In this document: in pieces, positions 1 through 31,471 of the stretch
Numbering within the stretch: the stretch's first letter is position 1
Layout: each line of letters begins with the position of its first letter
The notes under the pieces: generated by a model
Told to the model about the DNA's origin: nothing
The model's input: the letters and a program-made list of their open reading frames with translations, nothing else
Databases searched by the model: none
Assembly: GCA_947628725.1 (NCBI GenBank)
Contig: CANRAQ010000003.1
Coordinates: 1-33,228, forward strand
DNA from: an uncultured Bacilli bacterium
GTDB taxonomy: Bacteria > Bacillota_I > Bacilli_A > RF39 > UBA660
DNA length: 33,228 nt
Direction: 5' to 3'
Program-made: the position numbers and the translations under genes

Positions 1-459
1 AGTGAATATCAAAATTATACTACAGAAATAATAAATAGAAATCTACCAATATGGATGACATATGAACCTGGTAGTACATTTAAAATAATAACACTAGCAT
101 CCTCATTAGAAGAAAAAATAGTAGATTTAGATAATGATACTTATTATGATGGTGGCTCTATAACTGTTGGAGGTGCAACATTACACTGTTGGAAAGCAGG
201 AGGCCATGGTGCAGAAACATATCTTCAAGTTGTAGAAAATTCATGTAATCCGGGTTTTGTAAATTTAGGTTTAAAATTGGGTAAAGAAAAATTATTTAAT
301 TATATAAACTTATTTGGATTTGGTAAAAAAACTGGAATAGATTTAAATGGTGAATCAAATGGGATATTATTTAATGTAGATAAAATAGGTGATTTGGAAT
401 TAGCAACTACAGCATTTGGTCAAGGAGTATCAGTTACACCAATACACCTTACTGTCTAA
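1..459 (+). CDS. Class B penicillin-binding protein (SpoVD/FtsI-like), N-terminal part of the transpeptidase domain; open at the window edge and interrupted by the element
   Basis: Frame open from base 1: SEYQNYTTEIINRNLPIWMTYEPGSTFKIITLASSLEE. SxxK motif (STFK) and SxN motif (SCN in VENSCNPGF) are present, as is FGQGVSVTPI. It ends abruptly (HLTV*) inside element DNA and has no KTG motif. Confidence 0.93.
   Translation, partial: SEYQNYTTEIINRNLPIWMTYEPGSTFKIITLASSLEEKIVDLDNDTYYDGGSITVGGATLHCWKAGGHGAETYLQVVENSCNPGFVNLGLKLGKEKLFNYINLFGFGKKTGIDLNGESNGILFNVDKIGDLELATTAFGQGVSVTPIHLTV
440..446 (+). repeat. Left core direct repeat (attL) CAATACA
   Basis: Identical to 4175-4181; frame-restoring junction. 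Confidence 0.85.
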
Positions 460-677
460 TAAATGATACCTTATTATAACTATAGAAATAACTAGAAATA
501 TATGAAAAAGTATGATGTTCTATTCAATTATAATTGTTTTATATAAATAGTTGACTTCTTTGTCTTGTAAAATGTTGCAAATAAACGCAAAAAAATGAAA
601 AAATAAGTAAAAAAATAACAAAATATATTTATTTAGTTTTAGATAAATGATAAAATTAATATGAGGGAAGTGATAAT

Positions 678-1271
678 ATGACTAATGCTGAAAAGATTAT
701 TAAAATTGCAAATGAAAATAGTGGATATGTTACGACAAAACAAGTTAAAAATGCAAATATTAATACTATAGAATTGACGAGATTAGTAAATCAAAATAAA
801 TTAGAAAGAATCACAAGAGGCTATTATGCAATTGCTAATTCCTTATGTGATGATTATTATAAATATCAATTAAAATCTAAAAACTGTGTTTTTTCTCATT
901 CTACAGCACTTTATTTTTATGACTTATCTGATAGAACACCACTTTATTTTGATATGACTGTACCAGTTGGATATAATGGTAGTTTAAGTAAAGATAAAAA
1001 TATTACATTACATTATGTAAAAAAAGAGTTTTTAGAACTAGGTTTAACTACTGTTGAATCTCCTTTTGGAATGAAACTTAGAACTTATGATATAGAAAGA
1101 ACTATTTGTGACATAGTTAAATATAGAAATCATATGGATAAAGAAATCTTCACAAAAGCATTAAAATGGTATATTGAAAGAAAAGATAAAGATTTATTTA
1201 AATTAATGAAATATGCAAAAAAATTAAATATTGATAAAAAAGTTCTTGAATACATGGAGGTGTTATTATAG
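678..1271 (+). CDS. AbiEi-like antitoxin (type IV TA / abortive infection), N-terminal winged-helix
   Basis: N-terminal wHTH pattern (TKQVKNANINTIELTRLVNQNKLERITRGYYAI) and HSTALYFYDLSDRTP, typical of AbiEi; followed directly by an AbiEii gene. RBS gagggaag upstream. Confidence 0.88.
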   Translation: MTNAEKIIKIANENSGYVTTKQVKNANINTIELTRLVNQNKLERITRGYYAIANSLCDDYYKYQLKSKNCVFSHSTALYFYDLSDRTPLYFDMTVPVGYNGSLSKDKNITLHYVKKEFLELGLTTVESPFGMKLRTYDIERTICDIVKYRNHMDKEIFTKALKWYIERKDKDLFKLMKYAKKLNIDKKVLEYMEVLL

Positions 1272-2122
1272 TTAATTCTGATAAATTAAAAAACATCATA
1301 TTTAAAAAGGCACACGGAAATAGTGATATTTCACAAAAATTTTATCAATTGTTCTATTTTGAAAGAATTTTAGAAAGAATATCTATAAGTAATTATAGAG
1401 GCCAAATAATATTAAAAGGTGGATTATTACTTACTTCTATTATAGGAGATGAAGAAAGAACTACTAAAGATATGGATGCAACTTTAAAAGGTATACCACT
1501 TACAAAGAATGATGTAGAAAAAGTATTTAATGAAATATTCAATATAGATATCAATGATGGTGTATCATTTCAAATTATATCTATTAAAAATATTAGATTA
1601 GAAGATGAATATGGAGGTTTTAGATTAAAAATATTATCTAAATTGGATAATAATAAGACTTATATTACTGTTGAATTAACAACAGGTGATGTTATTACAC
1701 CAAGAGAAATGAAGTATAATTATAATTCTATTTTTGAAGATAAAAAGATACCTATAATGTCATATACACTTGAAACAGTACTATCAGAAAAATTTCAAAC
1801 TATTGTTACTAGAGGTTTATTGAATACCAGATTAAAAGATTTTTATGATGTTTATATATTAATCAATACAAAGATGAATGATTTAAGTAAAGATAACTTA
1901 ATTAAAGCAATAGAAAATACTTTTAAAAGAAGAGAAACAAATATTGATATAGAACGATTTAATGAAGTTATTAAAGATTTAAGTGATGATAATAATATGA
2001 ACAATTTATGGAATGAATATGTTTCAAAGAATCCATATGCAAAAGATATAAAATATGAAGATACAATTAAAGCAATAAACGAAATAATCAATATACTAGA
2101 AGAAGAATTAATTGGAGTATAG
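1268..2122 (+). CDS. AbiEii-like nucleotidyltransferase toxin; start likely non-canonical (ATA at 1268)
   Basis: FYFERILERISISNYRGQIILKGGLLLTSIIGDEERTTKDMDATLKG is an AbiEii nucleotidyltransferase signature. The ORF-track start (TTG 1349) lies inside the conserved QLFYFERI block. The frame is open upstream to 1250 with no ATG/GTG/TTG; GGAGG at 1256-1260 precedes ATA at 1268, which overlaps the abiEi TAG as ATAG. Confidence 0.82.
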   Translation: MVNSDKLKNIIFKKAHGNSDISQKFYQLFYFERILERISISNYRGQIILKGGLLLTSIIGDEERTTKDMDATLKGIPLTKNDVEKVFNEIFNIDINDGVSFQIISIKNIRLEDEYGGFRLKILSKLDNNKTYITVELTTGDVITPREMKYNYNSIFEDKKIPIMSYTLETVLSEKFQTIVTRGLLNTRLKDFYDVYILINTKMNDLSKDNLIKAIENTFKRRETNIDIERFNEVIKDLSDDNNMNNLWNEYVSKNPYAKDIKYEDTIKAINEIINILEEELIGV

Positions 2123-2266
2123 TAGGTTTAACTATGAATATTATTGGTAGTAAAATAATTGAATATGAAATATTTGAATTTTTTAAATATTGATTTTTTT
2201 AGCAATATTTATACTAAAATTAAAAAAGTTATGATCGTGATAAAATTAAATATTAAATTTTTTGTA

Positions 2267-2293
2267 GAACTTAAGTACTTAGGTTCTTTTTTT
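2267..2293 (+). terminator. Rho-independent terminator-like hairpin after the abiE genes
   Basis: GAACTTAAGT/ACTTAGGTTC stem (one G-U) followed by a run of seven T. Confidence 0.6.
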
Positions 2294-2332
2294 GAATTTA
2301 AAAAAATAAACTTAAAAGAAAGGACAAAGTAT

Positions 2333-2539
2333 ATGGAAAATATAAGTAAGATTCCATCAAAAATTATAGAAATAGAAACAAGTATTAAATTACTTGAATA
2401 TTTAAGAAGAAAAAATGCTATGGACGATGGAATGTATAACTTTTGTATTAATAAATTATTAAGAAAACAAGAATTAGAAAAAAATAGAATTGATTATGAT
2501 TATATAAATAATATAGATAATTATAAAATTTTAACCTAG
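2333..2539 (+). CDS. Small (~68 aa) protein upstream of the recombinase, function unknown
   Basis: RBS-like aaaggac, then ATG at 2333; MENISKIPSKIIEIETSIKLLEYLRRKNAMDDGMYNFCINKLLRKQELEKN. The upstream part of the 2159 ORF crosses a terminator and is unlikely to be coding. Confidence 0.6.
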   Translation: MENISKIPSKIIEIETSIKLLEYLRRKNAMDDGMYNFCINKLLRKQELEKNRIDYDYINNIDNYKILT

Positions 2540-2549
2540 GGGGTATATT

Positions 2550-4199
2550 GTGGATTTATATACAGTTAGGAATAACATTATGAAAGGTGTTCCACTACAA
2601 GAATTAAATTTAAGAGTCTGTTTTTATGCAAGAGTATCAACAGATAAAGATGAACAATTACATTCTTTATCTAATCAAATATCTTTCTTTAATGATTATA
2701 TTAGTAAAATTCCTAACTGGAAATTTATAGGTTCATATATTGATGAAGGAATATCGGGAACACAAGTCAAAAAGCGTGAAGAATTTTTAAGAATGATTGA
2801 AGATGCACGCATACATAAATTTGATTTAATATTAACTAAAGAAATATCAAGATTTTCAAGAAGTACACTAGATAGTATTATGTATACACAAGAATTATTA
2901 ACTAATGGTGTTGGCGTATATTTTTTAAATGATAATATAAATACAATACTACCTGATTCTGAACTTAGGCTTACAATGATGTCTTCTATTGCTCAAGATG
3001 AAGTTAGAAGACTTTCTGAAAGAGTTTCATTTGGTATGAAAAGAAGTATTGATAATGGTGTTGTACTGGGATGTTCAAATATTTATGGTTATGTAAAAGA
3101 TAAAGGAAAATTAGTAATAGATAAAGTCCAAGCAGAAATGATTAAGATAATATTTGATAGATATGCTAATACTACCGATGGTTTATCTAAACTATCAAGA
3201 TATTTGTTTAGTTTAGGATATAAAAGTAGGACAGGTAAAAGAATAGATACAACAATACTTACTAGAATTATAGAAAATCCTAAATACAAAGGATATTATT
3301 GTGGACATAAGTCAAAGGTATTAGACTATCGTACTAAACAAAAGAAAAAATTAAATGAATCTGACTGGATAATATATAAAGATTATGATAATGTTCCACC
3401 AATAGTATCTGAAAAACTATGGGAAAGAGCAAATATTAAATTAAAACAAAGGAAGGATAGTTTTACCAATCGAAAAGTTAATAAGAAAGTATTTCAAAAT
3501 AGATATACATATTCAGGAAAAATATATTGTGGATGCCACAATTTAACTTACCACAGATCAAGTTCAGGTAAAAGAAAAAATAATCCAGTATGGGAATGCC
3601 AAATATATAGGCGTGAAAGTTTAAAAGGTTGTTCTAATCCTAGAGTATTTGAACTTGAATTAGATAAAATATTTAAAGATATATTTAATAAATTATTTAA
3701 AAGAAGAAATGCTATTTTTAATGAAATATTAAGTGAATGTAAAAATTATTTAGAAACTAATAATAACGATATTGAAATAAAAAACTTTGAATCAAAGATA
3801 TTAGTTTTAAATAATAAAAAAGATAAATTATTAGAACTTGTTATGGAAGAATACTTATCTAAAGATGATTATAAAAAACAGATAGATATAATTAATGAAG
3901 ATTTAAATACTTATCAAAATAAAATACATGAATTAAAAAACAATAAGAAAGATAAAAACTATATAGAAAATAAAATTAATGAAATTAATAATGAATTAGA
4001 GAAATGTTTAGATGATGATAAATGTTATAGTGATATATTTAATGAAATAATAGATAAAATAATAGTTCACAAACAAAGTGATAAACAAATTAAATTAAAT
4101 ATTTTTATTAAGACAGGAGAAAGTGTATATACTACTTCTCTAAATTTAGGTAAAAAGTTTCATTTATTAGACCTCAATACAACAAATAACTGCCGTTAG
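2550..4199 (+). CDS. Large serine recombinase
   Basis: Resolvase catalytic motif CFYARVSTDKDEQ, SRFSRSTLDS, recombinase domain (GLSKLSRYLFSLGYKSRTGK...RIIENPKYKGYYCG), Cys-rich zinc-ribbon-like region (YCGC...WECQIYRR...GCSNP), C-terminal coiled coil. GTG start after gggggtatatt. Confidence 0.95.
   Translation: MDLYTVRNNIMKGVPLQELNLRVCFYARVSTDKDEQLHSLSNQISFFNDYISKIPNWKFIGSYIDEGISGTQVKKREEFLRMIEDARIHKFDLILTKEISRFSRSTLDSIMYTQELLTNGVGVYFLNDNINTILPDSELRLTMMSSIAQDEVRRLSERVSFGMKRSIDNGVVLGCSNIYGYVKDKGKLVIDKVQAEMIKIIFDRYANTTDGLSKLSRYLFSLGYKSRTGKRIDTTILTRIIENPKYKGYYCGHKSKVLDYRTKQKKKLNESDWIIYKDYDNVPPIVSEKLWERANIKLKQRKDSFTNRKVNKKVFQNRYTYSGKIYCGCHNLTYHRSSSGKRKNNPVWECQIYRRESLKGCSNPRVFELELDKIFKDIFNKLFKRRNAIFNEILSECKNYLETNNNDIEIKNFESKILVLNNKKDKLLELVMEEYLSKDDYKKQIDIINEDLNTYQNKIHELKNNKKDKNYIENKINEINNELEKCLDDDKCYSDIFNEIIDKIIVHKQSDKQIKLNIFIKTGESVYTTSLNLGKKFHLLDLNTTNNCR
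4175..4181 (+). repeat. Right core direct repeat (attR) CAATACA
   Basis: Identical to 440-446. Confidence 0.85.
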
Positions 4200-4845
4200 C
4201 GCTGCAATAAATGGTGGAATATTATATAAACCATACATAGTAAAAAGTTTGAGTGAACCAGAAACTAACAGTGTAATTTTAGAAAATAAACCTACAGTAG
4301 TTAGAAAAGTTATAAGTGATGATACAAGTATGAAAGTAAGATATGCTTTAGAATCAGTAGTTGCTCGTGGTACAGGACACAATGCATATATAGGAGGATA
4401 TAGAGTAGGTGGAAAAACAGGTACTGCTCAGAAGGCTCAAGATGGTAAATATTTAAGTGGAAACTATATAACAAGTTTTATAGGATTTTTACCTGCAGAT
4501 GATCCTAAAGTTGTAGTATATGTTGCTATAGATAATGCTAAAGGGATTACACAATATGGTGGAACTGTTGCTGCTCCAATCGCAAAAAATGTATTACTTA
4601 CTGCTATAGATGCACTTGGAATTGAAGAAAGAAAAGATGAAATACCAAGAGAATATCTATATACTGATAAACAGTATTCAGTAGTACCTAATGTGATTGG
4701 GATGACTGTAAAAGATGCAGTAAAAGAATTAAAAAAATTTAAAGTAGAATATAGTGGAGATGGAGATAAAATAACTTATCAATCACCAAGTGCTGGAACC
4801 GATTTATATGAAGGAGAAACTGTAAGACTATTATTATCAAATTAA
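4182..4845 (+). CDS. Class B PBP, C-terminal part of the transpeptidase domain plus PASTA domain (other half of 1..446)
   Basis: QITAVSAAINGGILYKPYIVK..., KTG motif (GGKTGTAQK), C-terminal PASTA-like VVPNVIGMTVKDAVKELKKFKVEY. In frame with the left half after excision at CAATACA. Confidence 0.93.
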
Positions 4846-4896: not shown

Positions 4897-4924
4897 ATAT
4901 TTTATTAAACGGGGAGTAATGATT

Positions 4925-6034
4925 ATGTTAAAAGAGTATAGTAAAGAAACAATTGAAAAAATTTCAAAATATTTCTTTGAAGAACTATCTAAATATGAAG
5001 GAGAGGAACCAATTTTATTTGATGATATAGATTCAAACTTATTAAATAAAATTCTTTTTAAATTTGAAGACCAATATTATTCATTTAAACATGATTTATA
5101 TTTATATAAAAAGATAGATTTCAGTAATGTTTCGTTTGATAACGTATATGTTATTGGATTAAATTTTACAGGATTTAGGGGAGTCAAAATAGATCCACAA
5201 ACGGTATTTAATAAAGACTTAAGGTATGCTAAATTATGTAATGTAGAAATAATTGGTGGTTTTGATGATGCTAATATTCGATTTACAGATTTTACAGGAA
5301 GTACAGGAGCAAAAATAAATCCACAAACGGTGTTATATAAAGACTTAAGTAATACTATATTACGTGATGCAGAAATAAAAGGAAGTTTTAATGGCGTTAA
5401 TATCAAAGGTACAGATTTTACAGGAAGTACAGGAGCAAAAATAAATCCACAAACGGTGTTATATGAAGACTTAAGTAATACTATATTATGTGATGCAGAA
5501 ATAAAAGGAAGTTTTAATGGCGTTAATATTAAAGGTACAGATTTTACAGGAAGTAAGGGAGCAAAAATAGATCCACAAACGCTATATAATAAAGAATTAA
5601 GGAATGCTAAATTATGTGATGTAAAAATAAAAGGAAGTTTTAATGGTGTTGATGTAAGGGATATAGATTTTACAGGAAGTACAGGAGCAAAAATAGATCC
5701 ACAAAAAGTAGTTAATAAGGATTTATCTGGGGCAAAATTATGCAATGTAGAAATAACAGGAAGTTTAGATGGTGTTAATATTGAAGGTACAAATTTTACA
5801 GGAAGTAAAGGTGCATTAGTTAATTTATATACTTTATGGTGTGATTTTCAATATACAAATTTCTGTGATGCAATTGTGTTAAGACCAGGATTAAGTTGTT
5901 ATTTGTATGATTATGTAAATAGAACTACAAAATATAATGAAAGTAAAATAGTAGAAATAAATCCGCAAGAAGAGTCAATTGAAAAAGAAGTAGAAGTTAT
6001 TAAAAGTAAAATTAAAAAAAATATTAAAAGATAA
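4925..6034 (+). CDS. Pentapeptide-like repeat protein with 42-aa units (paralog 1)
   Basis: Repeats of TDFTGSTGAKINPQTVLYKDLSNTILRDAEIKGSFNGVNIKG. Start at ATG 4925 is preferred over 4919 because of spacing from GGGGAG. Confidence 0.8.
   Translation: MLKEYSKETIEKISKYFFEELSKYEGEEPILFDDIDSNLLNKILFKFEDQYYSFKHDLYLYKKIDFSNVSFDNVYVIGLNFTGFRGVKIDPQTVFNKDLRYAKLCNVEIIGGFDDANIRFTDFTGSTGAKINPQTVLYKDLSNTILRDAEIKGSFNGVNIKGTDFTGSTGAKINPQTVLYEDLSNTILCDAEIKGSFNGVNIKGTDFTGSKGAKIDPQTLYNKELRNAKLCDVKIKGSFNGVDVRDIDFTGSTGAKIDPQKVVNKDLSGAKLCNVEITGSLDGVNIEGTNFTGSKGALVNLYTLWCDFQYTNFCDAIVLRPGLSCYLYDYVNRTTKYNESKIVEINPQEESIEKEVEVIKSKIKKNIKR
5285..5914 (+). repeat. Tandem 126-bp coding repeats (paralog 1); last unit boundary approximate
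   Basis: Unit starts at 5285, 5411, 5537, 5663 and 5789, each exactly 126 bp apart; the first two units are nearly identical. Confidence 0.85.
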
Positions 6035-6121
6035 GTATTAGATATGCTTATCTTTTAAGTTATATGATATTAGAAATATTTGAAATAAAGATAATTAAAT
6101 TGCTTTTCTATGAAGTAAAAT

Positions 6122-6150
6122 TTGACAATATAAAAAAAGTATGTTAATCT
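6122..6150 (+). promoter_or_regulatory. SigA-type promoter (TTGACA-17-TAATCT)
   Basis: Near-identical to the 4868-4896 module. Confidence 0.7.
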
Positions 6151-6178
6151 ATATTTCATTAAACGAGGTGGAATGATT

Positions 6179-7282
6179 ATGTTAAAAGAGTATAGTGAAG
6201 AAATAACTGGAAAAATTTCAAAATATTTCTTTGAAGAATTATCTAAATATGAAGGAGAGAAACCAATCTTATTTGATGATATAGATTCAGACTTATTAAA
6301 GAAAATTCTTTTTAGATTTGAAGACCAACATTATTCATTTAGACAAAATATATATCTATATAAAAAGATAGATTTCAGAAATGTTTCCTTTGACGATGTA
6401 GATGTTGAAGGAATTGATTTTATAGAATTTAGTGGAGTTAAAATAGATCCACAAAGGGTATTTAATAAAGATTTAAGTTATGCTAGATTATGCAATGTAG
6501 AAATAATAGGAAGTTTTAATGGCGCTGATGTAAGGAATACAGATTTTACAGGAAGTAAGGGAGCAAAAATAGATCCCCAAAAAGTACTTGACATGGATTT
6601 ATCTGGAACAAAATTAAGTGATGTAGAAATAATAGGAAGTTTTGATGGTGCTTATATAAGACATACTGATTTTACAGGAAGTACAGGAGCAAAAATAGAT
6701 CCACAAACAGTAAGTAGTAGTAATTTATATTGTACAAAATTATGTGATGCGGAAATAATAGGAAGTTTTGGTAATGTTTTTATTTCATGTACAGATTTTA
6801 CAGGAAGTAAGGGAGCAAAAATAAACCCTCAAGAAGTATGGCTCATGGATTTATCTGGAACAAAATTAAGTGATGTAGAAATAATAGGAAGTTTTGATGG
6901 TGCTAATATTTCACATACAGATTTTACAGGAAGTAAGGGAGCAAAAATAGACCCTCAAGAAGTGTACTCTAGGAGTTTATTTGGAACAATATTATGTGAT
7001 ACAGAAATAATAGGAAGTTTTAATGGCGTTAATATTGAAGGTACAGATTTTACAGGAAGTAAAGGTGCATTAGTGGATTTAGCTACTGTAGAAGAAAATT
7101 TTTATTATACAAATTTCTGCGATGCAACTTTAGTAGGACTAAGTAGATTTTGTGATGATAAAGCAAATAGAACCACAAAATTAGATGGAAGTAAAATATT
7201 AAAAACAAATTCACAAACAGAGTTAAAAGAAAAAAATGTAGAAATGATTAAAAGTAAAATTAAAAACATTTTATCTTTATAA
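6179..7282 (+). CDS. Pentapeptide-like repeat protein with 42-aa units (paralog 2)
   Basis: Same N-terminus (MLKEYSEE...ISKYFFEELSKYEGEKPILFDDIDSDLL) and DFTGSKGAKIDPQ repeats. Confidence 0.8.
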   Translation: MLKEYSEEITGKISKYFFEELSKYEGEKPILFDDIDSDLLKKILFRFEDQHYSFRQNIYLYKKIDFRNVSFDDVDVEGIDFIEFSGVKIDPQRVFNKDLSYARLCNVEIIGSFNGADVRNTDFTGSKGAKIDPQKVLDMDLSGTKLSDVEIIGSFDGAYIRHTDFTGSTGAKIDPQTVSSSNLYCTKLCDAEIIGSFGNVFISCTDFTGSKGAKINPQEVWLMDLSGTKLSDVEIIGSFDGANISHTDFTGSKGAKIDPQEVYSRSLFGTILCDTEIIGSFNGVNIEGTDFTGSKGALVDLATVEENFYYTNFCDATLVGLSRFCDDKANRTTKLDGSKILKTNSQTELKEKNVEMIKSKIKNILSL

Positions 7283-7400: not shown

Positions 7401-8957
7401 ATGAAAAAATTTAAATTACAAAAAAATAAAGTACTTGCTGTTATAGTGGCTGGAGTTATGTCTTCATCTGTTTTGGCTGCTTGTTCTAAAAAGAATGATG
7501 AAACTAAAAATATATCATCTAAGACTACAACTGTTGTTAGAAATGTAAATACTGCTCTTGATTTTTCATCAGATATATTATCTGGAGTAAATAAAGAAAA
7601 ACCAAGTAATGAAACAGGTAAATATGCAACTGAAAAACAAATATATTCAGAAATTAATACTAATATAGATACTAATTTTTCTGATTTAACAGAAAATATT
7701 AAGAAAAATACTTCTTTAATATTATTGTTAGATATATTTGCACCTGAAAATGAATATGGAAAAATAGATTCAAGTATAATATCAGAATTTAAATCAAGAA
7801 TAGATATTGATACTATGATGGAGGATTTCTATTCATTTGTTGCAACTGTAGAATCAGAAATTGAAGTAGAAGATAAATTTGTAAGAGTTAGTGATATTTT
7901 ACCAGATGTTAAATCTGATCAAAAACAAATATTATCTAAAATAGAAGATATTTGTTTAAATATTAAAAATCTTTCTAGCGACAGTAAAAATAGTTCAAAA
8001 ATTCAATCAGAGTTTAAGAAAATATATGATTTATTTGTAGATGAAGAAGAATTAGAAGTAGATGGATTAAGATTTAGTGTAAGAGATTTAGACTATGGAA
8101 ATAGAGCAGTTGCTGCTGCATATGCGCGTGCTGCATCATACTATGCTAGAAGTTATATTACAGATAAACAAATAAATGATATAGATAACAGAACTAATGA
8201 TCAAAATAATAAAGCACAAATAAAAATCATATTAGAAGTTTTAAATAATAGTATAATAGAAAAATCTACTGATGATGTTAATGAACAAATAAATACAAGC
8301 GTAAAAGAATTAGGAGAATTTGATTTAAATATATCAGATGACAATATAAAAAATATTATAAATATATTAAATATAGATTATTTAATGTCTGATAAAGTTT
8401 CTACAGTAGATGAAAGATCAATATTAGGTAAATATGATGATGAAGAAGTTAAAAGCGCTATAGATTCAATTACAGCTATATCATTACATAATATAAATAA
8501 TAAAGATAATTTAGTTATATGGTCTGAATTCTTAACTGATTCATATAAAACTACAGAACAAGGTAAGATAGATTCACTTGCACTTGATTATGTATTATTC
8601 AATACAGTAATGTTAAATAATACTGTTAAATCAGATGCATCTGACAATGAAATATTAAACAATCCATATTTTAAAAACTTAAAATTATATATATCTAAAC
8701 AAGATTTTGTTCAATCTGTAGAAAGAAATGGTAAAGTTGAAAATACACCAATTACATTTAAAAATATAGGTGAAGGAACAAAATTTGTATGTGATATTAT
8801 GGTTATAAGTGCATTAGCTAAATATCCTGAATTTAGTGATGCATACGGATTTACTGATGTCGCACAATCTAATTTTAATATTCAACTTCAACAATATCAA
8901 AATATAGTTATGGATGAATGTAAAAAAATAGATGACGAATATGTAATTATAAAATAA
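7401..8957 (+). CDS. Putative lipoprotein, function unknown
   Basis: RBS aggggggaa then ATG 7401; MKKFKLQKNKVLAVIVAGVMSSSVLAAC has a signal peptide with lipobox LAAC. Confidence 0.75.
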   Translation: MKKFKLQKNKVLAVIVAGVMSSSVLAACSKKNDETKNISSKTTTVVRNVNTALDFSSDILSGVNKEKPSNETGKYATEKQIYSEINTNIDTNFSDLTENIKKNTSLILLLDIFAPENEYGKIDSSIISEFKSRIDIDTMMEDFYSFVATVESEIEVEDKFVRVSDILPDVKSDQKQILSKIEDICLNIKNLSSDSKNSSKIQSEFKKIYDLFVDEEELEVDGLRFSVRDLDYGNRAVAAAYARAASYYARSYITDKQINDIDNRTNDQNNKAQIKIILEVLNNSIIEKSTDDVNEQINTSVKELGEFDLNISDDNIKNIINILNIDYLMSDKVSTVDERSILGKYDDEEVKSAIDSITAISLHNINNKDNLVIWSEFLTDSYKTTEQGKIDSLALDYVLFNTVMLNNTVKSDASDNEILNNPYFKNLKLYISKQDFVQSVERNGKVENTPITFKNIGEGTKFVCDIMVISALAKYPEFSDAYGFTDVAQSNFNIQLQQYQNIVMDECKKIDDEYVIIK

Positions 8958-8976
8958 AGTTCTTATGAACTTTTTT
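8957..8976 (+). terminator. Rho-independent terminator
   Basis: AAGTTC-TTAT-GAACTT followed by T-rich tract. Confidence 0.65.
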
Positions 8977-9031
8977 CTTTTGTCTATACTAGAAATTATA
9001 AATTATGATATAATTAATTAGAGGTGATTAC

Positions 9032-10423
9032 ATGAAATTTTATAATACATTGACTAGAAAAATTGAAGATTTTAAACCAATCAAAAAAGATGAGGTAACA
9101 ATGTATACATGTGGGCCTACTGTGTATCATTATGCTCATATAGGTAATCTTAGAACTTATATAATGGAAGATATATTAGAAAAAACTTTAAATTATATAG
9201 GTTATAAAGTAAAAAGATGTATGAATATAACTGATGTAGGGCATCTTACTAGTGATGCAGATACTGGTGAAGATAAAATGCTTAAAGGTGCGAAAAGAGA
9301 ACATAAAACTGTTTTAGAGATTGCCAAATATTATACAAATGTGTTTAAAAGTGATTGTGATAAATTAAATATCAAATGGCCAGAAATCGTAGTACCTGCT
9401 ACATCATTAATAGATTATTATATAGAATTTATAAAAAATTTAGAAGATAAAGGTTATGCTTATTTTAAAGGTGGTAATGTATATTTTGATACATCAAAAT
9501 TAAGTGATTATTATGTACTTACTAATCATACAGAAGATTCATTAAAAGAAGCAGTAAGAGATGATGTCACGCTAGATGTAAATAAAAAAAATAAGACTGA
9601 TTTTGTTCTTTGGTTTACTAAATCTAAATTTGATTCACAAGAATTAAAGTGGGATTCACCTTGGGGTATTGGGTATCCAGGTTGGCATATAGAATGTTCA
9701 TGCATATCTTTAAAATATTTAGGTGAATATTTAGATATACACTGTGGTGGTGTAGATAATATATTTCCACATCATACAAATGAAATTGCTCAAACAGAAA
9801 GTTGTGTAGGACATAAATGGTGTAATTATTGGTTTCATCCAGAACACCTAAACGATTCATCAGGTAAAATGAGTAAATCTAATGATGAATTTTTAACGGT
9901 ATCTCTATTAGAACAAAAAGGGTATAATCCACTAGTATATAGATTATTTTGCCTGCAATCACATTATCATAAACAACTTGTATTTAGTTATGATTCACTT
10001 GATAGCGCTAAACAGACTTATAATAAACTTTTAACTAGAATTAAAGGTATAGAAAAAGATAATTCAAAAATAGATTATGAAGAAGCAAAGAAATACCAAG
10101 ATAAATTTAAAAATGAATTAGAAAATGATCTTAATACCTCTAATGCTTTGACAGTATTATATGATGTATTAAAAAGTGATTTAAATAATAATACTAAGTT
10201 ATATTTAATCGAAGATTTTGATAAAGTTTTAAGTTTAGATTTGCTAAAAAAAGAAAAAATAGATGATGAATTACTAAATTATATAAATTCTAAAATAGAA
10301 GAAAGAAATTTAGCAAAACTTAATAAAGATTATGAAAAAGCAGATAATATTAGAAAAGAATTAGAACAAAAAGGTATTATATTAAAAGATACTAGAGAAA
10401 AAACTATATTTGAAATAATATAG
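9032..10423 (+). CDS. cysS: Cysteinyl-tRNA synthetase
   Basis: MKFYNTLTRKIEDFKPI...MYTCGPTVYHYAHIGNLRTYI; GWHIECSCIS; KMSKS. Confidence 0.96.
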   Translation: MKFYNTLTRKIEDFKPIKKDEVTMYTCGPTVYHYAHIGNLRTYIMEDILEKTLNYIGYKVKRCMNITDVGHLTSDADTGEDKMLKGAKREHKTVLEIAKYYTNVFKSDCDKLNIKWPEIVVPATSLIDYYIEFIKNLEDKGYAYFKGGNVYFDTSKLSDYYVLTNHTEDSLKEAVRDDVTLDVNKKNKTDFVLWFTKSKFDSQELKWDSPWGIGYPGWHIECSCISLKYLGEYLDIHCGGVDNIFPHHTNEIAQTESCVGHKWCNYWFHPEHLNDSSGKMSKSNDEFLTVSLLEQKGYNPLVYRLFCLQSHYHKQLVFSYDSLDSAKQTYNKLLTRIKGIEKDNSKIDYEEAKKYQDKFKNELENDLNTSNALTVLYDVLKSDLNNNTKLYLIEDFDKVLSLDLLKKEKIDDELLNYINSKIEERNLAKLNKDYEKADNIRKELEQKGIILKDTREKTIFEII

Positions 10424-22866: not shown

Positions 22867-22942
22867 AATATATTTAAAATATTAATTCCATAAATATCAT
22901 TTTTATTAATTAAATTCATATATTAAATTGAGGAGTGATTTT

Positions 22943-23473
22943 ATGGCATTATATAAGGAGATAGTCACTAAAGCTGTCATTGGTAAAGGTAAAAAATATT
23001 TTAAAGATAATTATAATATAACTACAGAAAATGTTCCAACTACTATATTAGGGTGTTGGGTTATCAATCATAAATTTAAAGGTTATAAAACTAATGATAG
23101 AATAGGTGTAAGTGGGTCATATGATGTAAATATATGGTATTCATATGATAACGATTCTAAAACTACTGTTGTAAGTAAAAATATTTCATACAATGATTTA
23201 TTCAATGTTAAACTTAAAGAAAATGCAGATTTATCTAGTGATACAGATATAATTGTAAGAACATTAAAACAACCAAGTTGTCTTGGAGTTAATTCTAATG
23301 AAAAAACTATATCATTCGACATTGAAAAAGAATTAGGTGTAGAAGTAGTAGGTGAAACAAAAGTAAAAATTGCTGTAGAAGAAGATGAAGAACCATGGGA
23401 TGAAATAGAGGATGAATTAACTGATAAAGATATAGAAGATATAGATAAAGTAGATGACAATTTTATAAAATAG
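22943..23473 (+). CDS. cotE: Outer spore coat morphogenetic protein CotE-like
   Basis: MALYKEIVTKAVIGKGKKYF...TTILGCWVINHKFKGYK...GSYDVNIWYSYDNDSKTTVV...TLKQPSCLGV...VEVVGETKVKIAVEEDEEPWDEIEDEL matches the CotE pattern with an acidic tail. Lies downstream of miaB as in Bacillus. Confidence 0.88.
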   Translation: MALYKEIVTKAVIGKGKKYFKDNYNITTENVPTTILGCWVINHKFKGYKTNDRIGVSGSYDVNIWYSYDNDSKTTVVSKNISYNDLFNVKLKENADLSSDTDIIVRTLKQPSCLGVNSNEKTISFDIEKELGVEVVGETKVKIAVEEDEEPWDEIEDELTDKDIEDIDKVDDNFIK

Positions 23474-29610: not shown

Positions 29611-30468
29611 ATGAATACAGAAATAATAAAATCAGAAATTAATGTTAATAATAAAATTAATATTATGCGAATAGGAAATAAAGAATATATTTCTCTTACA
29701 GATTTGGCTAGATATGCTAACCCTGAGGAACCAAAAATTCCTATTCAAACATGGATGCGTAATAAAGATGTTATAGCTTATTTAGGATTGTGGGAAAAAT
29801 TAAATAATGAAAATTTCAAAGGTGTCGAATTTACGACCTTTGAATCTTTAGCAGGTAAAAATAGCTTTTATATGTCTCCACAAAAATGGATTAAGGAAAC
29901 CAATGCAATCGGAATAATATCTAAATCAGGTAATAATGGCGGTACTTATGCTTGTAATGATATAGCTTTAGAATTTGCAAGTTGGCTATCTCCAGAATTT
30001 AAATTGTATGTTATACAAGAATTTGAAAGATTAAAAAAGAATGAAGCATATCAATATAAAGTTGATTGGACAGCTAGTAGAATGCTTGCTAAATCTAATT
30101 ATCATATTCATACTGATTCAATTAAAGAAAATATTATTCCTAAATTAACTGAAAAGCAAAAACAATATGTATATGCTGAAGAAGCTGATGTATTAAATGT
30201 TGCTTTGTTTGGTATGACTGCGAAAGAATGGAGAGAGAAAAATCCTAATCTCGAAGGAAATATTCGAGATTACACGAATTTGAAACATTTACTCATTTTA
30301 TGTAATTTAGAAAATACAAATGCGGAACTTATTAATGATGGTTTACCACAAAAAGAAAGATTAGTAAAACTTAATAATTCAGCTATTAGGCAAATGAAAA
30401 TTTTAGAAAACGATAAATCTATAAAAGAATTAGAAGATTTAAATAAAAAATTAATAAGTACTAAATAG
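29611..30468 (+). CDS. KilA-N domain-containing protein (copy 1)
   Basis: NIMRIGNKEYISLTDLARYANPEEPKIPIQTWMRNKDVIAYLGLWEKLNN...FYMSPQKWIKETNAIGIISKSGNNGGTYACNDIALEFASWLSPEFKLYVIQEFERLK. Confidence 0.9.
   Translation: MNTEIIKSEINVNNKINIMRIGNKEYISLTDLARYANPEEPKIPIQTWMRNKDVIAYLGLWEKLNNENFKGVEFTTFESLAGKNSFYMSPQKWIKETNAIGIISKSGNNGGTYACNDIALEFASWLSPEFKLYVIQEFERLKKNEAYQYKVDWTASRMLAKSNYHIHTDSIKENIIPKLTEKQKQYVYAEEADVLNVALFGMTAKEWREKNPNLEGNIRDYTNLKHLLILCNLENTNAELINDGLPQKERLVKLNNSAIRQMKILENDKSIKELEDLNKKLISTK
29815..29844. repeat. Inverted repeat inside KilA-N copy 1 (9-bp arms)
   Basis: TTCAAAGGT (29815-29823) and ACCTTTGAA (29836-29844). Confidence 0.85.
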
Positions 30469-30598
30469 TTATGACAATTTAGGAAACACATTTATATATC
30501 GACAAACAATAATCAAATATAAGTAACAAATTTTTTAGGTAAATATATATTTTATCCAAGTATATGATAAAATTATTTTAGTAATTAAGGGGGAAAAT

Positions 30599-31471
30599 AT
30601 GGATAAAGAGTTAATTAAAACAGAAATAAATGTTAATAACAATAAAATAGGTATTTTAAGAATCGGTGACACCGACTATATATCATTAACTGATTTAGCA
30701 AAATATTCCAATCCTGAAAATCCTGCTAATGTTATAATACATTGGATGAGCAATAAAGGAACATTTGATTATATAGGATTATGGGAACAATTAAATAATG
30801 AAAATTTTAATTTCACGGAATTCCGTGAAATTAAAAATAATGAAGTTGGATATTCATCATTTACTTTAAGTCCTAAAAGATGGATTGATAAGACAAATGC
30901 CATAGGAATATATTCTAAGGGTGGGAAATATAGCATAGGAACATTTGCTCATCCTGATATAGCATTTGAATTTGCTAGTTGGTTAAGTCCTACTTTTAAA
31001 TTATATTTGATTAAAGAATTTGAAAGATTAAAAAAGAATGAGGCATATCAAGAAAAAATTGAATGGCATGCTAATAGAGTTTTATCTAGAACAAATTATT
31101 TAGTCCATACGGATGCCATAAAAAATTATATTGTACCATTATTAACTGAAAAACAAAAACAATATGTGTATGCTGAAGAAGCTGATGTATTAAATGTTGC
31201 TTTATTTGGTATGACTGCGAAAGAATGGAGAAAAATTAATCCAAAATTGGCTAAAGATGGAAATATTAGAGATTACACTGATTTAGTACATTTAGTCATA
31301 TTAAACAATTTAGAAAACTCTAATGCTGAATTTATTAAGTTAGGATTATCACAAAAAGAAAGATTAATAAGACTTAATGATTCCGCTAGAAATCAAATGG
31401 AAATCTTAAAAAATAATAATGGAATAAAAGAATTGGAAAACATTGATAAATACTTAATTGAAACTAAATGA
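30599..31471 (+). CDS. KilA-N domain-containing protein (copy 2)
   Basis: Paralogous to 29611..30468 over the whole length. Confidence 0.9.
   Translation: MDKELIKTEINVNNNKIGILRIGDTDYISLTDLAKYSNPENPANVIIHWMSNKGTFDYIGLWEQLNNENFNFTEFREIKNNEVGYSSFTLSPKRWIDKTNAIGIYSKGGKYSIGTFAHPDIAFEFASWLSPTFKLYLIKEFERLKKNEAYQEKIEWHANRVLSRTNYLVHTDAIKNYIVPLLTEKQKQYVYAEEADVLNVALFGMTAKEWRKINPKLAKDGNIRDYTDLVHLVILNNLENSNAEFIKLGLSQKERLIRLNDSARNQMEILKNNNGIKELENIDKYLIETK
30805..30836. repeat. Perfect 32-bp palindrome inside KilA-N copy 2
   Basis: TTTTAATTTCACGGAA/TTCCGTGAAATTAAAA. Confidence 0.95.

Follow-up and report, generated by a model that had tools for sequence, protein, structure and literature searches.

A small serine-recombinase element splits the sporulation gene spoVD in RF39-type gut Bacilli and may be excised to rebuild it

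Several spore-forming bacteria carry DNA elements inside sporulation genes that are rebuilt when the element is excised. Such elements have been described in sigK, spsM, spoVFB, spoVR, gerE and yabG, with targets that are almost always mother-cell genes (PMC6957869, PMC5595907, PMC5025042, PMC10747680), and in the skin element of Clostridioides difficile a small in-element protein, CD1234, serves as the recombination directionality factor (RDF; PMC5025042). Examples of mother-cell gene rearrangement have so far come from only a few genes and strains. In this article we describe an element with its own large serine recombinase (LSR) that splits a gene we identify as spoVD in an uncultured gut bacterium with a tiny genome. 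The stretch analysed (33,228 nucleotides; hereafter the window) is the whole of contig C3 of a 1.07-Mb metagenome-assembled genome (92% complete, 103 contigs), which was assembled from a short-read metagenome. The locus shows several of the features by which skin-type elements are recognised: it encodes its own site-specific recombinase, it interrupts a mother-cell sporulation gene (in Bacillus subtilis spoVD is under sigma-E control), and its exact removal in silico restores the reading frame.

The original prediction, made from the letters of the window alone, had proposed that a serine-recombinase element of about 3.7 kb splits a class B penicillin-binding protein (PBP) gene, with the SxxK and SxN motifs to the left of the element, KTG and PASTA to its right, and an uninterrupted frame once the flanks are joined. 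We found each of these statements to be correct (Table 1). Specifically, joining positions 1-446 to 4182 onward gave a single frame without a stop, with GVSVTPIQQITAVSAAINGGILYKPY spanning the join, and a gap-free alignment of the joined product with an intact ortholog gave identity at 322 of 367 residues. The prediction had left the identity of the PBP undecided between SpoVD and a division protein. The SpoVD model TIGR02214 was the top-scoring model for each half; the joined product, which is N-terminally incomplete, scored 494 bits against a cut-off of 688, and an intact same-genus ortholog (G014) cleared this equivalog cut-off with 715.9 bits. On the strength of these matches we identify the split gene as spoVD. 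The alternative, an on/off switch of an essential division PBP, was rejected on two grounds, the SpoVD identity of the gene and the presence on contig C18 of an intact FtsI/PBP2x-like protein; the other class B PBP of this genome, PBP2B-like (C75), is intact as well. A search of related genomes for an intact copy, as proposed earlier, found one in seven same-genus species (G001, G008, G009, G010, G013, G014 and G015). No second intact SpoVD, which would have marked the split copy as a dead pseudogene, was found in the window's genome assembly.

Both junctions contain CAATACA (440-446 and 4175-4181), as had been noted. When we aligned about 57 homologous junctions, the sole constant shared by all attL and attR sites was the dinucleotide CA, with the remainder of CAATACA varying; the longer repeat is therefore partly a matter of chance and the minimal shared core is CA. 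The element ends carry a 12-bp inverted repeat formed by GTCTAATAAATG and CATTTATTAGAC, whose arms would face each other in a circle. Such palindromic ends are as expected of the attP site of a serine integrase, judging from the predicted site.

Table 1 Features of the split spoVD locus in the window
Feature	Position	Strand	Remarks
spoVD 5' part, SxxK (STFK) and SxN (SCN)	1..446	+	codons 267 to about 415
Invariant crossover dinucleotide CA, attL	445..446	+	shared by 13 attL junctions
Intervening element, 3,735 bp	447..4181	+	
Left inverted-repeat arm GTCTAATAAATG of predicted attP	454..465	+	
AbiEi antitoxin/regulator, 197 aa	678..1271	+	PF13338 2e-10; PADLOC AbiEi 1.2e-70
AbiEii nucleotidyltransferase toxin	1271..2122	+	PF08843 4e-36; PADLOC AbiEii 8e-91; start tentative, first ATG/GTG/TTG at 1349
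Terminator-like hairpin and U-run, directly 5' of small ORF	2266..2293	+	alignment of 41 loci
68-aa ORF	2333..2539	+	no Pfam match
LSR, 549 aa	2550..4199	+	Resolvase, Recombinase and zinc-ribbon domains; YARVS at residue 26
Right inverted-repeat arm CATTTATTAGAC of predicted attP	4161..4172	+	
Invariant crossover dinucleotide CA, attR	4180..4181	+	
spoVD 3' part, KTG and one PASTA domain	4182..4845	+	from codon 415

The recombinase is classed as an LSR by its three domains and the catalytic serine in YARVS, and its final codons extend beyond the crossover into spoVD DNA. The closest named NCBIfam models were the recombinases CcrA/B/C of the staphylococcal cassette chromosome (SCC), matched far under the cut-off (101 vs 900 bits). 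The original prediction had overlooked the cargo of the element, namely the AbiE genes and a conserved 68-aa open reading frame (ORF). The adjacent AbiEi and AbiEii genes form a putative type IV toxin-antitoxin pair. The 68-aa ORF lies immediately 5' of the LSR gene in each related locus covering that stretch, and the block from the hairpin to the start codon was the best conserved non-coding stretch among the 41 aligned loci; owing to this constant position and strongly conserved leader, the 68-aa protein is the best candidate RDF. None of the four genes of the element is viral and no relatives of the LSR were found in IMG/VR, and we therefore rejected a prophage as an explanation for this element. 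Nor do its ORFs include relaxase or conjugation genes, which would mark an integrative and conjugative element.

We then compared the locus with those of other species, using one genome per species. The scan yielded 65 loci, with a close relative of the LSR in 63; in 57 of these, from RF39-type Bacilli and with the window included, this relative sits immediately in front of spoVD codon ~415 (site C), meaning that dozens of species share the insertion site. The relatives include Candidatus Aphodocola, which has been assigned to the order RF39 and family CAG-433 (PMC8035907). One attR type was found in 36 of 388 species and 24 of 152 genera of the family, with no match in a reversed control. A second cut site in spoVD, at codon ~296 beside SxxK (site A), was found in G002 and G003, and a third, at codon ~349 at SxN (site B), in G004, G011, G017 and G034 and, by single halves, in G005 and G033; where found, the LSRs at these two sites differ from the window's type (41-44% identical). 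In G003 spoVD lies in three pieces, cut at codons 296 and 414. The related elements span 3.1-7 kb, each with a single recombinase alongside two to six cargo genes (toxin-antitoxin or other). Gap-free, in-frame restoration was also obtained at 11 further junction pairs, which together cover spoVD sites A, B and C, spoIVA and the genes for a D,D-carboxypeptidase, a GerS-like protein and a SpoVE/FtsW protein.

The halves show little sign of decay. Among the 57 3' halves at site C, 54 reach the natural stop uninterrupted; in 3 the contig ends first, and not one is broken. Within the genus, the ratio of nonsynonymous to synonymous substitution rates (dN/dS) was 0.09-0.14 for segments of split spoVD and 0.06-0.12 for intact genes, and the recombinase too is under purifying selection. 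In three close pairs (L249/L267, L216/L225 and L229/L256) the gene and its LSR have diverged in parallel, with a dN/dS of 0.05-0.09 for the 3' half. Tandem two-element arrays with an attP-like junction also occur in spoVD (L258/L291, L264/L292 and L218/L290). Two of these arrays have a disrupted inner recombinase, with an IS21-type insertion in L258/L291 and frameshifts in L264/L292, and another LSR stands at the spoVD 3' half.

LSR elements interrupt other genes as well. We surveyed PF07508 recombinase loci from 41 genera of the family plus the window's genus, comparing their surroundings with a reference set of 780 ORFs from the relative G028, where PF07508 detects no recombinase; target counts cover assignable loci, about half of all LSR loci. 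Next to the recombinase, the interrupted genes were spoVD, spoIVA, cotE and cotJC together with those encoding a CotD-like coat protein, a SpoVE/FtsW protein, a SafA-like LysM protein, a LysM amidase, a D,D-carboxypeptidase, a collagen-like protein and, by a weak match, a GerS-like lipoprotein. Of the 29 targets assigned in the family-wide set, 24 were spore genes or probable spore-envelope genes (three were added via the attR search). If one assumes that genes of this class make up one-tenth of all genes, the chance of this is ~1e-19, and that of 11 out of 14 distinct genes ~3e-9, with 4 of the 11 spore target classes being only probably spore-related. All the well-identified targets correspond to genes that B. 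subtilis expresses in its mother cell. Targets outside spore genes were zupT, the serS 3' end and the upstream side of rbgA (three loci), together with a calcium P-type ATPase gene in G015, outside the family-wide set. The rbgA insertions, just upstream of the gene in three species (L128, L130 and L158), represent a repeated non-sporulation target.

In the window's own genome, a second LSR element on contig C2 adjoins a CotD-like fragment without a start. This element (L097, about 7443-9805 of G000:C2) carries MazE/MazF-like ORFs and adjoins the 3' end of the CotD-like gene; a like arrangement recurs in G018, G021, G032 and G034, and weakly in G067. An LSR element cuts spoIVA at codon 121 in G002 (L100, C25 7965-12578) and at the same site in G059 (L139), and spoIVA is also found in halves in G017 and G015.

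The host appears, from its gene content, to retain the sporulation programme: Spo0A, an uninterrupted SigK-like sigma factor, a SigG-like sigma factor and SpoIVA are all present, the sigma matches lying under curated model cut-offs yet at E <= 1e-77. The window also contains an intact CotE-like gene (22928-23473), identified via its ortholog and PF10628; in G058 (L137) the ortholog is itself interrupted by an LSR element. A published survey predicted RF39 to be spore-capable and listed spoVD among the genes reduced or absent there (PMC10868615). Directly 3' of spoVD the window encodes two tandem pentapeptide-repeat proteins of 371 and 369 aa (4919-7282), a clear duplication; in relatives the neighbours of spoVD are ldh and others in place of this pair. 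Further along lie an adjacent paralogous pair (29611-31471), both matching the PADLOC candidate defence family PDC-S22, and an IstB/IstA-like pair of the IS21 type on the minus strand at the contig end (31680-33228), which probably broke the assembly there. A similar IS21-type pair disrupts an LSR in L258.

The best explanation of these observations, and one that we consider probable, is a skin-like excision in the mother cell that rebuilds spoVD. Under this explanation a non-viral, site-specific mobile element would have integrated at a fixed spoVD codon through its own LSR. Vegetative cells would keep spoVD in two pieces without cost, since SpoVD is needed only for the spore cortex, and the AbiE pair may help to hold the element in place. 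During sporulation the LSR, probably with the 68-aa protein as its directionality factor, would excise the element in the terminal mother cell, recombination between attL and attR would restore spoVD exactly, and the forespore would retain the integrated copy. Skin, SPbeta, vfbin, vrin, gin and yin are known to behave in this way (PMC6957869, PMC5595907, PMC5025042, PMC10747680), and the reading is favoured by the preference for spore genes, the unbroken halves and a conserved recombinase accompanied by its partner ORF. The logic of skin and SPbeta invoked by the original prediction thus stands as the best reading of an LSR element, a split spoVD-like gene and its exact restoration, with excision, its timing and its control by the mother cell, like the roles of the 68-aa protein and AbiE, being what we infer from these rather than see directly.

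Several observations weigh against developmental excision, and some of them would suit the main rival, an ordinary mobile element with a conserved target. Such an element would enter and leave at a low rate during vegetative growth and under no developmental control, with spoVD as a tolerated landing site and each insertion too young to have decayed. Across species the divergences of LSR and spoVD are uncorrelated (r = 0.03); vertical inheritance of the insertion is therefore unsupported, and insertions must often be gained and lost, with the element moving horizontally. Turnover is also seen to be high in L233/L266, where the spoVD 3' halves are near-identical (no synonymous difference) and the LSRs differ at a third of synonymous sites. 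The openness of the halves could partly reflect such young insertions. Inspection by eye of the 41-locus alignment revealed no clear sigma-E or sigma-K promoter motif before the LSR operon, and a conserved terminator-like hairpin stands where the promoter was sought (perhaps an attenuator holding the recombinase silent). The assembly to which the window belongs contains no empty spoVD site, and no circular form was seen in the assemblies; a search of 388 species for the attP pattern gave matches in four, and those that could be traced were not excised circles, as their contigs matched two elements in tandem inside spoVD. Moreover, contig C3 opens at SpoVD codon 267, placing the first 266 codons outside the 92%-complete assembly, and sporulation in this lineage is so far a prediction from genes. 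The contig start lies 87 nt upstream of the site-A crossover, and contig ends also fall near site A in G012 and G016; these breaks looked like possible branches of the assembly graph between empty and occupied sites. The few targets outside spore genes would likewise suit an uncontrolled element. On the other side, one would not expect tolerated sites at large to show so strong a preference for spore genes (24 of 29 cases). Also against this rival stand the 57 3' halves without a single broken one and the three pairs in which gene and LSR diverged in parallel while the 3' half remained constrained. We regard this rival as unlikely.

Alternatively, the insertion may have inactivated spoVD for good in lineages that no longer make cortex or spores, leaving a pseudogene. 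While the published listing of spoVD as reduced or absent and the lack of any excised form would fit such a loss, both halves are open and constrained like intact genes, Spo0A, SigK, SpoIVA, a SigG-like factor and CotE are retained, and the same survey predicts spore-forming RF39 (PMC10868615), all of which makes permanent inactivation improbable. That both halves are open reading frames could also mean that they are translated separately and act together as a two-piece enzyme. This we consider very improbable, as a signal peptide, a membrane anchor and evidence of a separate promoter are all missing from the 3' half, the left half terminates with a short tail encoded by the element, and the cuts vary by species (codons 296, 349 and 414), one falling at SxxK and one at SxN. 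Finally, a short-read metagenome assembly may contain chimeras; since dozens of independent assemblies, which come from other laboratories and other animals, show these junctions base for base, an assembly artefact is hardly credible here.

If skin-like excision does rebuild spoVD, insertions in this and other spore genes across dozens of species suggest DNA-level rejoining during spore formation. We are evenly divided on a broader, lineage-wide picture, in which DNA splicing would be routine in the spore formation of these genome-reduced bacteria, many species would harbour between one and several small, mutually unrelated LSR elements in mother-cell genes, some of them with spoVD in three pieces, spore assembly would need several independent excisions, and these genes would be the default niche of non-viral elements. 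Such a niche would account for the persistence of small non-viral elements in bacteria with reduced genomes, as excision harms only a dying cell. Surveys of gene absence may also miss split spore genes, and the reported reduction or absence of spoVD in RF39 (PMC10868615) may partly stem from splitting. On the practical side, these loci offer many natural pairs of LSRs and att sites with precise sites.

The principle of gene rebuilding by excision is already known. In the literature searched, we found no naturally occurring intervening element reported for spoVD, spoIVA, cotE or spoVE; what has been described is an experimental secondary insertion of ICEBs1 into spoVD (PMC3715440) and, in C. 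difficile, a prophage adjoining a cotJC homologue (PMC11222575). Within that literature, what is new is the set of natural targets (spoVD, spoIVA, cotE and spoVE), the use of three independent sites in one gene, the very small size of non-viral elements with cargo, and their family-wide prevalence.

How, then, does the locus compare with its closest counterparts? Like the window's element, skin (in sigK of B. subtilis and C. difficile) is an LSR element that splits a mother-cell gene, and its exact excision restores the gene, as is proposed for the window's element; its target, however, is a sigma factor and not the gene of a cortex transpeptidase. Skin elements measure 14-48 kb, whereas elements of the window's type span a few kilobases, show no phage genes, and have an RDF and sigma control that, unlike those of skin, are putative. 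SPbeta (spsM), vfbin (spoVFB), vrin (spoVR) and yin (yabG) are likewise LSR elements in sporulation genes, almost all of the mother cell (PMC4191935, PMC6957869, PMC10747680), but are prophages or prophage-like and known from single or few strains, in contrast to the attR type shared by 36 species here. Closer in kind is gin, in gerE of Bacillus cereus ATCC10987, a non-prophage element that rebuilds a sporulation gene with a serine recombinase and a partner (GirC/GirX; PMC5595907), although at 28.6 kb and with three recombinases it is far larger than elements with one recombinase and a few cargo genes. The SCC elements, finally, provide the nearest named recombinase models and share with the elements described here accretion in tandem at one site, but they insert at the rlmH 3' end and leave that gene intact, unlike the insertion that splits spoVD.

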